Source of the DNA: an uncultured Schlesneria sp.
Lineage (GTDB): Bacteria > Planctomycetota > Planctomycetia > Planctomycetales > Planctomycetaceae
NCBI GenBank assembly: GCA_903834925.1
Contig: CAILLA010000231.1
Coordinates: 1 to 55,396 of the forward strand
Reading direction: 5' to 3'
Length of the DNA: 55,396 nucleotides
Notes under the pieces: generated by a model
Database searches by the model: none
The model's input: the letters and a program-made list of their open reading frames with translations, nothing else
Told to the model about the DNA's origin: nothing
Position numbers and translations under genes: made by a program
Shown: positions 24,506 to 32,396 of the stretch, in pieces
How the letters are laid out: each line of letters opens with the position of its first letter
Numbering within the stretch: the stretch's first letter is position 1

Positions 24506-24575
24506 AGGGGCCTAATTCAGTAGTTTGACAAGGGGCTAATACTAAGCCGATTGGTTTCGCACTCGACCGTTATCA

Positions 24576-25583
24576 TCATTTCCATTGCTCCGACAAAAAC
24601 TTTCGCAAAACCACTGACTTCACTTGTTCGACGTCAGTAAATCGCAGTCGAATCACATCGAAACCACTTTTGTCGCGCGATGAGATTTCGGGATCGATGC
24701 CCAAGTTTGCAATCTGGCCCAACTGAACCGCACCTGCCTTGACGGAGATTGACAGTTCCAAGGCAGAAGGTCGCTTTGTCAAGAGCGATGCTCTCGGCAT
24801 TTTGTCGATCGTATAGTTCACTATGATTTTTTGCGTCCAATCAACTTCGGCGTTCGGAAGCAGTTCGCTGACAAGAGTTATGAGTTCTTCCAGGACAATC
24901 GGTTCCCATACGATTGCGCCCTGAAGAAAACCCTTTCGCATCAAATGCCACTTTCGGCCAAGTTTTTTCCACGGAGTCAAATCCTCCAGATTGAGTGACT
25001 CGGGATTCGTTCGATCAATAAACGATTGCACGGCCTTCGCAAAAAAACGTTGAAATGCAACGGTCTCGGTTTCAGTAACATCGACAATCGAAATCGTAAT
25101 GTCTTCAAACGGCCCGTTTGTGGATGGACGAATTCGAACGCGCGGTTGACGATTATAGACCGGGATTTCGTCGAGATCATTCACGTCTTTGAGTCCAAGT
25201 TCGGTGATGAGCGTTGCTTCTATAAAGGTCCGTTTTGGAACTCGAAACTTCAATGTCAACAACCATTCGTCACCCGTATACGCATGCAGGAACCATCCAA
25301 TCCCTTTGGCTTTTGCGGCCACTTCCACCGTGCTGCGCTCATTCCAGTTGGTGGGACTGAACTTTTCTGACGCTTCCAGTTCGTCGATAATCCGAGCGAG
25401 AATGACTCCTCTCCATCGTCGTGGTTTACCATTGTTTGCTAACCCGTCGATCGTATGCCACTTTCGTCCGTCGACTTCCCAGGGCATCTTGGCATCCGCT
25501 CCGATTTTCGTCGGATCGAGATCCCCAGCTTTTTTCTTCCGAACGGCTTCTGCATCAAACGTCTCGCGGTCTCCACGCCCTCC
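24576..25583 (-). other. C-terminal extension of tandem UvrA: two copies of an unrecognised domain
   Basis: After the normal UvrA end ([13 protein letters not shown], near residue 2195) come a basic linker and two related units. Repeat 1 (about 2228-2395) begins [14 protein letters not shown] and contains [25 protein letters not shown], a Leu-Gly turn, [20 protein letters not shown] and AFQRFF. Repeat 2 (about 2398-2529) begins [15 protein letters not shown] and contains [46 protein letters not shown] and VLRKFL. Shared order and motifs (PW...GRKWH; W plus beta strands; F/V-rich strand then R/KF-F/L at the end) indicate an internal duplication. I do not recognise the fold. It has no ATPase or Cys motif. 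Confidence 0.75.
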
Positions 25584-28500
25584 GTCAGCTAAAACCTTCG
25601 CAAGAATTTCCCCGGTAAAACTACGGTGGGCAGCTATCGTTGACTGCTGGTCGCTGACGTCTGATACGGCAAATGAAGTAGGCGATTTCTTTCTACTCTT
25701 GATCCCTATTGGTCGGCGAGATTCGTTGTGTGAATTCAGTCGACTAATCGCGAGTTCAGAGACATCCTCCGGGGTTCCTTCGGCGACAATCCAACCACCT
25801 TCGGCACCTGCCTGCGGACCGAGGTCGATTATCCAATCGACAGTCTTGATCACATCGAGATTATGTTCGATGACCACGACTGTATTTCCGGCGTCGACCA
25901 GACTATTCAGAATCTTCAGCAGTTTACGGATATCATCAAAGTGTAATCCGGTCGTTGGTTCATCCAGCAGATAGAGCGTTTTTCCGGATTGAGGACGAGC
26001 CAGTTCGGCAGCCAGCTTAACCCGCTGCGCTTCTCCTCCAGACAACGTCGGTGCCGGTTGTCCAAGAGTCAGATAGTCGAGTCCAATTGCAGCCAGGACC
26101 GAGAGCGGTCCACGAATCTTTGGAATGTTATCAAACAGTTCCAATGCCTGACCGATCGACATCGCCAGCACGTCGGCAATATTCTGACCCCGATAAGTCA
26201 CTGTCAGTGTTTCAGCGTTGTACCGCTTTCCTTGACAGGTATCACATTCAACCCAGATGTCGGGCAGAAAGTGCATTTCAATCAACTTTTGACCATTTCC
26301 CTCACACGCTTCGCAACGCCCGCCAGCTCGATTGAAACTGAAACGCGTGGCACTGTAACCACGAACCTTCGCCTCGGGCATTCGTGAAAACAATTCACGA
26401 ATATGTTCGAAAACACCCGTATAAGTCGCGGGATTTGATGCGGGTGTTGTCCCGAGCGGTTGCTGATCCACAACGATGATCTTGCTGAGAAATTGCAGGC
26501 CGTTGAGTTCGTCATACGGACCTGGTTGTGCAGTCGCTCGGTTGAGCTTTTGAGAGATCGCACGAGCGAGCGTGTCATCGATCAACGAACTTTTTCCGCT
26601 TCCGCTCACACCGGTCACTGCCGTCAGTGTCCCGAGTGGAATTCGCAAGTCGACGTTTCGCAGATTGTGCTGTCGAGCACCCAACAATTCGAGCCAACCG
26701 CCTCCGGGAGGAGTTTCGTAGGAACCAGGCTCTGGTTCGATTGGAAGAGGTTCGTATTCGACGATATCTGCAACGGGTCCGATCCCAGGGACAATTACCG
26801 GTGTTCGATTTGCTACCTTTTTTGTGGCAGACTTTTTGATTGCCGACGCGTCTTGAACCGTAATGCGTTGTATCCGCCGCCGTTTCGGAATGACAATCTC
26901 TTCCCGGCCAGAGAGATACTTTCCTGTAAGCGACAATTCGCTCTTTTGAATTTCGCGTGGCGGCCCTTGTGCGGTAATCGTTCCGCCAAATCGACCAGCA
27001 GCAGGACCAAAGTCATACAGCCGATCGGCCGCTTGCAACACTTCACGATCGTGTTCGACCATGACAATCGTATTGCCCAAATCGCGAAGTTTTACCAGTG
27101 CTGTCAGCAGACGTCCGTTGTCACTGGGATGCAGGCCGATTGTTGGTTCATCCAGCACATACAGAACACCGGTTAAAGCGCGGCCGATTTGACCGGCAAG
27201 TCGAATCCGCTGTGTTTCGCCTCCAGAGAGAGTTGGCAAAGTTCGACCGAGCGTGAGATAGTGCAAGCCGACATCGACAAGAAACTTCAGTCGTGAAGTT
27301 GCCTCAGTCAATAAGTCTCCTCCAATCCGCTTCTGAGCAGCCGTCAACTTGAGTTCGCTTAAGAATGTCAGTGCGTCTTGCAGCGGAAGATCGCAAACTT
27401 GCTTGAGCGTCTTGCCCGATTCAGCGCCCGGCAACGACTTCAAAGGGACAGAGCGTTTCGGTTGAGGAAAAGCGACGAAAGCACCTTCCGGATTCGACGC
27501 AATTTTCACCGAGCTTGCGTCGTCCCGTAGTCGACTCCCCTGACAGGATGAGCAGGGGACGTCGCCGACAAGGCCGTAGAGCTTCATGCGATAGTCGTAC
27601 GAAAGGCTTGCCGCTTGTTCGATCGCCGGATAAAGCCCTTTGTATTGAAAGCGTACGGTTCCCGATGTTGATCCCGAAGTTCGCGACGACTTCGACCTTC
27701 TGGGGGACTGCGAAATTGCGTCTTTCGAGGAAGAGATCAATGGAATCCATGTTTCGCCAGTCCCAAAGAGTACGGCTCGTTGTTGGAGCGGATCTAACTG
27801 AGAAAACGGAACATCCAGCGGTATGTCGCATTCCATCGCCATGGATTCCAGCATTAACCGAAAGAGCGGTGATTTCACCGGATCAGGCCATGCGCTGACC
27901 GCTCCTTGCCTCAAAGAACGAGTCTGATCCGCGACAAGCGCCCCGAGATTTGTCCCTTGTTGAACGCCAATCCCTTCACAGGTATTGCACCAACCAAGAG
28001 GGCTGTTGAACGAAAAGTTATGGGGCGCAAGTTCCTCAAATCCACGCCCACACGATTCGCAGGCCCGAAACAAGCTGAACGGAAGGACTTTCCATTTCTT
28101 TTCGTCACGACTGTCGTCCACAATCGCAACTCGGATCAATCCCTTGCCAAGATCAAACCCAAGTTCGACCGACTCAGCCAGGCGAGATCGGCTCGACCTC
28201 GAAATCGTGATCCGGTCGACGACAATCTCAACCGTATGCTTTCGCTTTCGATCGATTTCTGGAACATCCTCTAAGGCATAGGTCACTCCATTGATTCGAA
28301 CTCGACGGAAACCCTGTTCTCCGACGCGTTCCCACAACTTTGAGTATTGCTGGCCGACCGTGACTTCCTGCGGCGCAAGAACGAGGGCTCGCAGATTTGT
28401 TGAATCCGTCGATGGCGGCAGGTCGGCCTCAGTTGGTCCTTTCTTTCCTGGATTCTTCTGGTCGGTCGTCGATTCCGCGTTTGTGCTGAGATCAAGCAGG

Positions 28501-31500
28501 CGTTCGATCACGTCGTCGACGGTTTGCGATTTGACGGCGATTCCACAGTCAGGACAGTATTGGGTTCCCAGACGCGCGTACAGAATTCGCAGGTAATCAT
28601 AAATTTCCGTCACTGTCCCCACGGTCGAACGGGGCGTATGTCCAACGGTCTTTTGTTCAATCGCAATCGAAGGTTGCAACCCGTGAATGTGGTCAACGCG
28701 TGGCTTCGGCATCTGACCCAGAAACTGCCGTGCGTAAGATGAAAGCGATTCGACGTATCGGCGTTGCCCTTCGGCGTAGAGCGTATCCATTGCAAGAGAA
28801 CTTTTGCCCGAACCACTGGGACCGCAAAAGACACTCATCTGATCTCGTGGAATATTCAGGTCAAGGTGTTGCAGGTTGTGTTGAGCCGCTCCGCGTACCA
28901 CGATCGAAGTGTCCGCACCTTCTGATGATTGCCTGAGTGGTACGGAGGTCTGCCAGCGCGAGCCTATTTGCGAACTTACGATGGTCGGAGCATTTGCTCC
29001 AGCCGACTTCTTCTTCGCGGTCTTTTTTGACGAGCCGGATTCCACTGGTGCGAGGCCCGCAATATTCCGCAACGCCTTGCCTGTGTACGATTCCTCGCAC
29101 TGAATAACTTCTTCTGGCGTCCCTTCCACAAGAATGCGACCACCTCCGGATCCACCTTCAGGACCTAGATCAATAACCCAATCTGCTGTCTTGATCACAT
29201 CCAGATTATGTTCCACCACGATCACGGTATTGCCCGCTTCAACAAACCCGTGCAAGACACGTAGCAAGTGCTCAATATCAACGAAGTGCAGTCCCGTTGT
29301 CGGTTCGTCGAGAATGTAGACAGTCTTACCTGTCGATCGCTTGCTAAGTTCTTTCGCCAGTTTCACGCGTTGAGCTTCGCCGCCGGATAGTGTCGGCGAT
29401 GGCTGACCGAGCTTGATGTAATCCATGCCGACGTCATGCAGCGTCTGAAGCGATTTCATTAGCTTTGGATGGTGCTCAAAGTGCTCGAGACCCTGCTGAA
29501 TATCCATTTGAAGAACATCGTTGACATTCTTCCCTTTGAATCGAACTTCCAGTGTCTCTTTATTGAAGCGTTTCCCCTGGCAAACCGGACACGTGACCCA
29601 GATATCGGCCAGAAAATCCATTTCCAGTTTGTTCGAACCATTTCCCTCGCACGCTTCACAACGTCCACCCGGCACATTGAATGAAAAACGACCGGGCTTA
29701 AACCCACGTAATTTCGATTCTGGCAACTGCGTGTAAAGATCTCGAATCAGATCGAATAGTTTCACATAAGTTGCGGGATTCGACCGAGGGGTCCGACCAA
29801 TCGGACTCTGATCAATATCGATCGCTTTATCGATGTGCTCCAGCCCAACGATCTTGGTGTATTCGCCTGGACGCCCAATTCCCTTATTGACGTCGCGATT
29901 GAGGACCTCCCATAAAATGTCGTTGACGAGCGAACTCTTTCCAGAACCGCTGACTCCCGTCACACAGATGAATTTTCCAAGCGGAAATTTTGCGGTGACA
30001 TTGCGTAGATTATGATGCGTCGCTCCCTGAATCTCGATGGCATGCCCATTTCCTTGACGACGCACTTTAGGAACTTCAATTGTCCGTCGACCGCTAAGAA
30101 ATGCTCCAGTGAGGCTGCGCTTCGATTGTTGGATGTTTTCAACGGTCCCTTCGGCTACGACTTCTCCCCCGCGCACGCCAGGACCTGGTCCAAAATCGAC
30201 CAGATGATCAGCGGCCTTCATTGTTTCATCGTCATGCTCGACAACGATGACCGTATTTCCCTGATCTCGCAGATCTTTGAGGCTATCAAGTAGCATTGTA
30301 TTGTCGCGCGGATGAAGGCCGATCGAAGGCTCGTCCAGAATATAAACCACGCCTACCAGTCCACACCCGATTTGTCCCGCCAATCGGATGCGCTGACTTT
30401 CACCACCAGAAAGGGTCGGTGCCGTTCGGTCCAGCGTCAGGTAATCCAAACCGCATCGAAGCAAAAAGCCCAGGCGTCCACGAATTTCCTTCAACGCTTC
30501 CGATGCAATAAATTGCCCGGTGTCAGAGAGTTCGAGTTCGTCAAAAAATTCCCACGCGGCTAACGTGCTCAATGAACAGACTTCTGGCAGCGACAGTGCC
30601 AAGGGTGGTGTCCCCTTGGATGCGAGCCGAATCGCGTCACGCCGCGATTTCTTTTCCTGATCGTTTCGTCGATCCAAGGCTGTCCGCCGTTCCTCGTGTG
30701 CGATTTCAGCACTTTTCGAGGTCAGTCGATAACTGCTGGCCTCTATATTCAGTCGTCGACCACCACAGCTGGCACAGCCGGTTTCATGCATATACTTTTC
30801 AAGCTGAACTCGTCGCATCGGGTTGCGTGTCTTCCGATATTCATCCAGCAATTCCGGTATGAACCCGGCATAAGTTCCCCCGCGTTTCCAGACACCATTT
30901 CCTGTTCGATAGGCGAATGTGATATTTCGTGATCCAGTTCCATAAAGGAACAGATGCTTTGCGGCATCAGCAAGATCTCGCCATTTTGTCTTGAAAAACG
31001 AATCTTCCTCCAGCCCAAGGTCGATCTCGATCGCGCGGGCAACCCCCTTAAGAATATGCTTTCGCCACTTGCCCACGGAACTGAGCTTCCCGAGCACGAC
31101 GATCGCACCCTTTTGAATCGTGAGCTGATCATCGGGAACCAGTCGATCGATGGCAAAGTCGTATCGAATCCCCAGCCCCTGACAATCGGGACACATCCCT
31201 TGCGGACTGTTGAAACTGAACAACTGCGGTGAGGGTTGCTGATAACTGATGCCACAGTGAGTACAGGCATAGTCGCATGAAAAGAGCTGCTCGACCGATG
31301 ACTGCGCATTAGAATGAGCATCCGATTCCAGCGGATTGTCTCGACGAGAACTGGATTTCCTGGTGGCAGCTTTCGTTACTCTGGCCGATGTCGCGGTTTC
31401 CGAAGAATCTTGCTCGTCATCGGCTGCCATCGACTGATCGCGATCGACTTCGCGGGCGATGACCAGTTTACGCTCCGCCAGATTCAGCGCAGTTTCGATC

Positions 31501-32165
31501 GCCTCGGCAACGCGTGCACGAGGTGTCTTTCCGGCGACCAGCCGATCGACCACGACGTCGATCGTATGCTTCATTTGCTTATCAAGTTGCAAATCGTCTG
31601 TCAGTTGAACGATTTTTCCATCGACACGAGCGCGCAAAAATCCCCGTTTGAGCAAATCGACAAATAAGTCTTTAAATTCACCCTTTTGCCTCTCGATGAG
31701 TGGCGCAAGAACCTGGTACTTGGTTCCTTCGGGGAGCCGCAACACATTGTCGAGAATATGCTCGCGGGTCTGAGCTGTGATCGCGCGGCCACATTGATAA
31801 CAACTAGCGGTTCCTACGCGCGCAAAAAGGACGCGTAAATAATCATAGATCTCTGTGATTGTTCCAACGGTACTGCGGGGATTTCGACCGCTCGCCTTTT
31901 GCTGAATCGAAATGGATGGAGCCAGACCGGTGATCGAATCCACTTCGGGTTTCGGCATCTGCCCGAGAAACTGCCGTGCGTATGACGAAAGGGACTCGAC
32001 ATATCGACGTTGTCCTTCTGCGTAGAGAGTGTCGAAGGCGAGAGAACTCTTCCCCGACCCGCTGACGCCCGTCATCACAATCAATTTGTTTCGCGGCAAA
32101 GTCAGGCTGATGTCTCGCAGATTATGCTCGCGAGCACCACGAATCACGATATCAGAAGCAGCCAT
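24576..32165 (-). CDS. uvrA: Giant tandem UvrA (two UvrA units fused) with duplicated C-terminal extension
   Basis: A 2,529-aa excinuclease subunit A, about 2.7 times the usual 940 aa. UvrA finds bulky DNA lesions and loads UvrB in nucleotide excision repair; normally it is a homodimer. Unit 1 spans about 5-1040, a Lys/Ser/Ala-rich linker 1040-1080, unit 2 about 1081-2195. Each unit has both ATPase modules: Walker A near 33, 739, 1116 and 1855 (GVSGSGKS, or GPSGSGKS in the third), signatures SGGESQR/SGGEAQR/SGGETQR/SGGEAQR near 585, 928, 1647, 2043, and Walker B ending [34 protein letters not shown]. Both units keep the UvrB-binding region and the C-terminal zinc finger (CEACEGNG with CPVC or CDTC). 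Residues 2197-2529 are an extension with two diverged repeats (see its own entry). ATG 32165 is preferred over TTG 32171. Tandem UvrA proteins occur in Planctomycetes and Chlamydiae. The gene stands alone. Confidence 0.96.
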
Positions 32166-32396
32166 GGGCAAAACAACATAAAAGAGGGATCGTCGTCGTC
32201 CGAAAAACCAGTCAAGATGTTACGAAGTATAGACCAGCCATACGCGCCAGCAAGCCTGACCAAGTGTCCCTTGTACTCGTTCGTCCGTGAGGGTTCTTCT
32301 TTCGACGTCGGATTCGTTATGATTCGTCAGGAATTGCCTGGACACAATCGGAGTCAATAACGGTTGATAGATCGCCTTTCAGGAACTGGATTGCAA

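Follow-up and report, generated by a model that had tools for sequence, protein, structure and literature searches.

The double UvrA gene and its C-terminal tail

The window analysed was a stretch of 55,396 nucleotides from an uncultured Schlesneria sp. (assembly GCA_903834925.1, contig CAILLA010000231.1). It carried on the minus strand a gene (24576..32171) for a double UvrA of 2531 amino acids (aa) with a C-terminal tail, identified by Pfam and NCBIfam matches and LSGGE signatures. The first UvrA copy comprised about residues 1-1040 (29052..32171, minus strand; best TIGR00630 stretch 8-1023), and the second, recognized by Pfam and NCBIfam matches, LSGGE and its identity to the first, comprised about residues 1066-2190 (25602..28976, minus strand). 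The two halves were 40.8% identical over 1120 aligned columns. Four LSGGE signatures were present (residues 587, 928, 1648 and 2043), UvrA_inter and UvrA_DNA-bind of Pfam each matched two stretches, and the TIGR00630 match of NCBIfam was split over four. The protein scored 2420.7 bits for TIGR00630 (curated cut-off 729.8) and 2496.7 for PRK00349 (cut-off 1147); for PRK00635, also of NCBIfam, it scored 1245 bits, below the cut-off of 3054. UvrA appeared to end near residue 2195, where an earlier note on this DNA had placed it, because the core preceding the tail was a tandem double UvrA.

A double UvrA of Planctomycetes has been published in PMC8567305, whose section and figure legend on it do not mention a tail; as described there, that protein has two full UvrA units per chain, as do PRK00635 and the window protein. 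Unlike the latter, the PRK00635 model, with 1809 positions, leaves little room for a tail. Judged by titles and abstract beginnings, no paper reporting a UvrA tail was found.

The tail consisted of about 335 residues (about 2197 to 2531) at the C-terminal end of the double UvrA, where one domain of about 130-160 residues stood twice in tandem; it is named here the PW-WH domain, since each copy opened with PW-x3-G-x2-WH. An alignment placed the linker from the UvrA core at about residues 2191-2229 (25485..25601, minus strand). Copy 1 (about residues 2230-2391; 24999..25484, minus strand; profile match 25008-25484) had a PW-x2-DGRKWH start and a T-G-D/E-E-W hairpin, and copy 2 (residues 2400-2531; 24579..24974, minus strand; profile match 24570-24974) had a T-K-R hairpin. 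GRKWH was located at residues 2235 and 2405, and the PW-x3-GRKWH motifs started at 2230 and 2400, within two residues of the positions (about 2228 and 2398) first proposed from the letters.

Profile-profile comparison of the two copies gave a probability of 99.1 with E 1.4e-18 over 145 columns (53 and 47 rows). After the sets had been enlarged and cleaned to 99 and 102 rows, the values were 98.9 and 3.4e-17 with a score of 105, far above the decoys, which reached at most 24.3 (24 per query, composed of 18 UvrA-core slices and six reversed alignments). By these profiles the two copies are homologous beyond chance, and the duplicated domain that the earlier note had seen at the UvrA C-terminus was borne out.

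Relatives on NucS-like proteins

The same domain was found by profile search beyond UvrA, at the C-terminal end of NucS-like proteins. The raw tail, searched independently against plasmids, gave a sole match (E 0.9), a haloarchaeal protein annotated 'endonuclease NucS domain-containing protein' and carrying TPWKVDGKRWHL, and a profile match in the phylum, L196 (373 aa), was a NucS-like protein whose C-terminal domain begins with ...KPWLVDGKTWHL... More members were found on plasmids of Halocatena, Natronomonas and Halobacterium. The Halobacterium member adjoined BREX genes and a Kiwa KwaB-like gene, and a Haladaptatus member lay near a helicase gene and a TIR gene. The profile of these NucS-type domains (n=14) matched copy 1 with probability 95.9 (P 5.7e-9, score 57.9, 104 columns) and copy 2 with probability 95.6 (P 1.3e-8, score 53.8, 121 columns); the highest of the 24 decoys per query scored 24.3, and a score of 25.1 was obtained for the nuclease-domain profile with its own reversed version. 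Profile comparison thus shows that the tail copies are homologous to the domain at the C-terminus of NucS-like (PDC-S11-like) proteins from other planctomycetes and from haloarchaeal plasmids. These proteins (e.g. WP_266080609.1 and WP_011324512.1) share a PW-x3-G-x2-[WY][HY] start with the tail copies, but they have a single PW-WH copy behind a NucS-like domain, whereas in the window protein a pair of copies follows a double UvrA, with no nuclease; a NucS-like nuclease domain was found neither among 25 of the 43 Pfam rows for the UvrA protein nor in those for the tail alone.

The N-terminal part of L196 and three haloarchaeal proteins matched PDC-S11 of PADLOC (best E 1.2e-46 to 7.4e-32), two f39-type proteins matched it more weakly (E 1.5e-17 and 1.6e-8), and in every case the match excluded the C-terminal domain. 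NucS_C of Pfam scored 19.9-24.0 bits (cut-off 24) in L196 and the haloarchaeal domain-bearing proteins, and no match to it was found in the four f39-type proteins scanned. The label 'NucS-like' for the f39 type was based on phmmer with L196 and on the PDC-S11 rows of the two scanned, with L263, L265 and L266 assigned by eye. Relatives of L196 were present in 30 of 294 phylum genomes, and among the 30 loci read the PW-WH domain formed the C-terminal end of L196 and nine f39-type proteins. Among ten other NucS-like C-terminal ends that were scanned, four had DUF4268 and the others matched no Pfam family there, so the C-terminal position seems to be a swappable slot. The E-x-K motif of L196 and the haloarchaeal proteins was missing from L265 and L266, in which the nuclease domain may therefore be dead with the PW-WH domain kept. 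Six further NucS-like proteins (L209, L210, L214, L218, L219 and L221) had GGG-x-WY and PG-x-GYVGVG-like motifs in their C-terminal part, which presumably resembles an EVE-type reader of modified bases; Pfam gave no match in this part of the two scanned (L209 and L214).

With a joint profile and up to 10 candidates scored in each genome, the domain was detected in 58 of 392 phylum genomes. Forty of these genomes belonged to the class of the window genome, Planctomycetia, and had it on frames between 382 and 2726 aa long, presumed to be UvrA or pieces of it. In two more, G114 (which was read) and G176, the frames measured 2268 and 2259 aa. The other 16 genomes had frames of 245-406 aa, 13 of which were read and were all of the NucS-like type; the remaining three were G264, matched over the N-terminal part in the search for L196 relatives, G324 and G482. 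A third domain context was not seen among the candidates scored in these 392 genomes.

Family libraries and predicted fold

Pfam, NCBIfam, PADLOC and PHROGs gave no credible match for the tail, the nearest being DUF900 (E 0.2). Sequence searches of the PDB gave no match for the two-copy profile, E 0.5 or worse for copy 2, and E 0.12 or worse for L196. One NucS-type domain weakly matched phrog_19880, a transcriptional regulator (E 0.019). An apparent match of the NucS-type domain profile to 7on7 (E 0.0003) was set aside, with 27 residues covered and no stretch passing alone. These libraries therefore do not explain the tail, and the domain pair is real and conserved. The earlier description of a domain with no known motif thus held for the libraries used, but not in full, given the homology to the NucS-like C-terminal domain and the fold described below.

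The AlphaFold2 model of the tail had a predicted local distance difference test (pLDDT) value of 91.4, and it showed the order helix, three strands, helix, two strands, helix twice, in line with the parallel order of hydrophobic strands and the closing helix noticed before in both repeats. Both copies aligned to YjbR, and they were superposed via YjbR only, the pairwise structural alignment being limited to chains ranked by Foldseek. In the fold search with copy 2 the first seven rows were YdhG, the C-terminal domain of phage T4 MotA (MotA-CTD) and YjbR, which ranked above chaperones of the type III secretion system (T3SS); these chaperones and Arp2/3 subunits were recurrent among the fold matches. 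The best Foldseek E for the whole tail (6.2e-4) belonged to LAGLIDADG nucleases, which were rejected for poor superposition (TM 0.15, root-mean-square deviation 22 A), the catalytic motif not having been searched for. The fold is predicted with confidence, and its closest likenesses are to YdhG/DUF1801, MotA-CTD ('double wing') and YjbR.

For YdhG/DUF1801 (9t2w, 2oc6; PF08818) and MmcQ/YjbR (2fki, 2a1v; PF04237), no Pfam row was obtained with the window tail or any of 45 two-copy tails, and a clean profile-profile comparison of copy 2 with DUF1801 gave a probability of 18. The PW-x3-G-x2-WH start of the tail copies was not seen in the YdhG/DUF1801 and YjbR members listed. The double-wing DNA-binding domain of MotA (1kaf, 5jlt) was a match in fold only, with no sequence relation shown; the acidic hairpin tip of copy 1 sets that copy apart from it, and the tip of copy 2 was basic. 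In PMC7641849, YjbR was argued to bind DNA as MotA-CTD does and to be fused to EVE readers of modified bases. When profiles were built from planctomycete members of PF08818, PF04237 and PF18899, DUF1801 and YjbR matched each other (probability 94-95), and DUF1801 matched DUF5655 moderately (70-78). DUF1801 and YjbR matches also stood in tandem within a single frame in G020 and G024.

Distribution and age of the tail

The tail was found in 54 of 59 relatives by single-sequence search and in 55 with a profile, which gained G043 (copy 2 only); with the profile, G019, G031 and G055 had no tail match, and G041 matched on an Mrr-type protein only (E 0.04). In a first profile search of the 392 phylum genomes, with at most five candidates scored per genome, 53 matched, namely 50 of the window's own genome, family and class and three from outside it; two of the three (f55) had the match on frames the size of UvrA, and the third had it on a frame of 373 aa. 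The 50 made up all sampled genomes of the class (n=52) except G413 and G399, if, as list order suggests, the 319 unlisted unmatched genomes fall outside it. Copy 1 alone was retained in G016 and in six of the seven f2 genomes, the seventh (G055) having neither copy, and copy 2 alone was retained in G054 and G043.

Beyond the phylum, plasmid, phage and viral-contig records were searched and one genome collection was scanned. In the scan 448 of 480 stretches were confirmed, and the details rest on the best 80 of these 448 loci. Judged by their titles, all 80 are presumably planctomycetes except 'bacterium isolate RI_361'. At least one LSGGE was present in the tail frame of 71 of them; among the other nine, eight were cut by the contig start and L091 started about 54 bases from it.

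In a tree, copy 1 (n=99), copy 2 (n=102) and the NucS-type domains (n=14) formed three separate groups with no exceptions (supports 0.972, 0.899 and 0.748), which indicates a single old duplication and no local event. The tail thus appears to be near-universal in class Planctomycetia and to have been duplicated once, long ago. A mobile-element origin was considered and rejected: 50,697 phage records had no match for the tail or for a NucS-type domain, and among 30 pattern matches in viral contigs the sole relative was a uvrA 3' end. A second viral scan with L196 gave no relative among seven pattern matches, and the plasmids gave no match for the f39-type protein.

Hairpin residues and selection

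In copy 2, the turn between main strands two and three had T in 98, K in all and R or K in 94 of 102 rows. The equivalent turn of copy 1 had T in 94, G in 83, D or E in 76, E in 81 and W in 93 of 99 rows. The NucS-type domains had T at this turn in 11 of 14 rows and R just before in 13 of 14, with extra arginines after it in the nine f39-type rows. So in these alignments the tip is invariantly basic in copy 2 and acidic in copy 1.

Ratios of nonsynonymous to synonymous substitution rates (dN/dS) against four Schlesneria relatives were 0.05-0.09 for copy 1, 0.12-0.18 for copy 2 and 0.04-0.08 for the UvrA halves, with dS high and close to saturation in places. The linker ratio was low in three of the four comparisons and not computable in the fourth. 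By these values the tail is under purifying selection.

Putative function of the tail

The tail is fused to UvrA and conserved together with it. The PW-WH pair shares descent with the NucS-like C-terminal domain, and the double UvrA would have carried it already before class Planctomycetia radiated. Copy 2, with its T-K-R/K tip, would straddle double-stranded DNA like MotA-CTD and give the double UvrA a second DNA grip near the lesion. Copy 1, with its T-G-D/E-E-W tip, would be re-purposed, most likely docking UvrB or a different repair factor as its protein partner, or gating copy 2. As an outcome, UvrA would be loaded more strongly or more selectively at bulky lesions. The reading in which copy 2 takes hold of DNA, copy 1 serves a different and probably protein-facing role and both jointly tune damage recognition is given about an even chance; DNA binding is the best supported role for copy 2, and for copy 1 a protein partner would be plausible.

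It is possible, though doubtful, that the tail is a protein-protein module in which each of the two copies docks a factor such as UvrB or RNA polymerase, DNA contact being incidental. By analogy it would work like the peptide-binding T3SS chaperones of similar alpha-beta(3)-alpha-beta(2)-alpha fold, which recur with Arp2/3 subunits in the fold matches; copy 1 also evolved more slowly than copy 2 among the Schlesneria relatives, and it is the copy, with its acidic tip, that the f2 genomes retained. However, the tip of copy 2 is invariantly basic, YdhG, MotA-CTD and YjbR outrank the chaperones in its fold search, and NucS-like proteins carry the same domain with no obvious partner in common with UvrA.

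An intramolecular regulatory or structural part, whose copies pair and cover the DNA channel in the covalent pseudo-dimer of UvrA in place of control by two free chains, is unlikely. It would agree with the finding that the window's genome has a tail only on its double UvrA and none on the separate single UvrA (G000:C35, a 955-aa frame, too short for a tail), and with copies that diverged once and were kept paired in most class genomes seen. Single-copy tails nevertheless occur in f2, G016, G043 and G054, so pairing of the copies is not essential, and double UvrA occurs outside the class without a tail: at least six frames of double length (1869-2016 aa) were among those listed there, and L270, the one whose translation was read, had no PW-WH domain. 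A metal-handling domain like frataxin or YdhG for an iron-sulfur repair step is highly improbable, since the sequence tie to DUF1801 is uncertain, the hairpin of copy 2 is basic and not acidic, and UvrA is known for zinc and is not known for iron-sulfur.

UvrA being among the best conserved repair proteins, this class-wide accessory tail offers a testable handle on modifying lesion search. The tail points to a domain family missing from the libraries used, which in the phylum sample and the haloarchaeal plasmids was otherwise seen only on NucS-like proteins. There is a slim chance that PW-WH is a family reading bulky or modified bases, common to defence-type NucS-like proteins and excision repair; if so, excision repair and phage defence would be linked by shared parts.

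Variant loci and neighbouring genes

L198 (IMGVR_UViG_3300048591_001610), which was filed as viral, starts with a uvrA 3' end whose tail has copy 1 only. The genes that follow resemble phage genes on inspection, and the contig is perhaps a prophage adjoining uvrA. The double UvrA gene was apparently split in L037, L038 and L039 (f4) and in L033 (G018): the tail-bearing frame started at the equivalent of window residue 712 or so in f4 and 1376 in G018, and no frame above 200 aa for the missing part was seen at the locus. In G018 a 1277-aa UvrA frame lay about 16 kb from the tail-bearing one. In-frame TGA codons stood at the copy 1 start in L036 (G033) and inside the matched stretch in L053 (G037), both from draft genomes. 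In two genomes of the same genus, DUF1801 genes lay immediately next to the tailed uvrA at its 3' end, on the opposite strand (L160, L161 and L186; G011:C156 and G012:C84).
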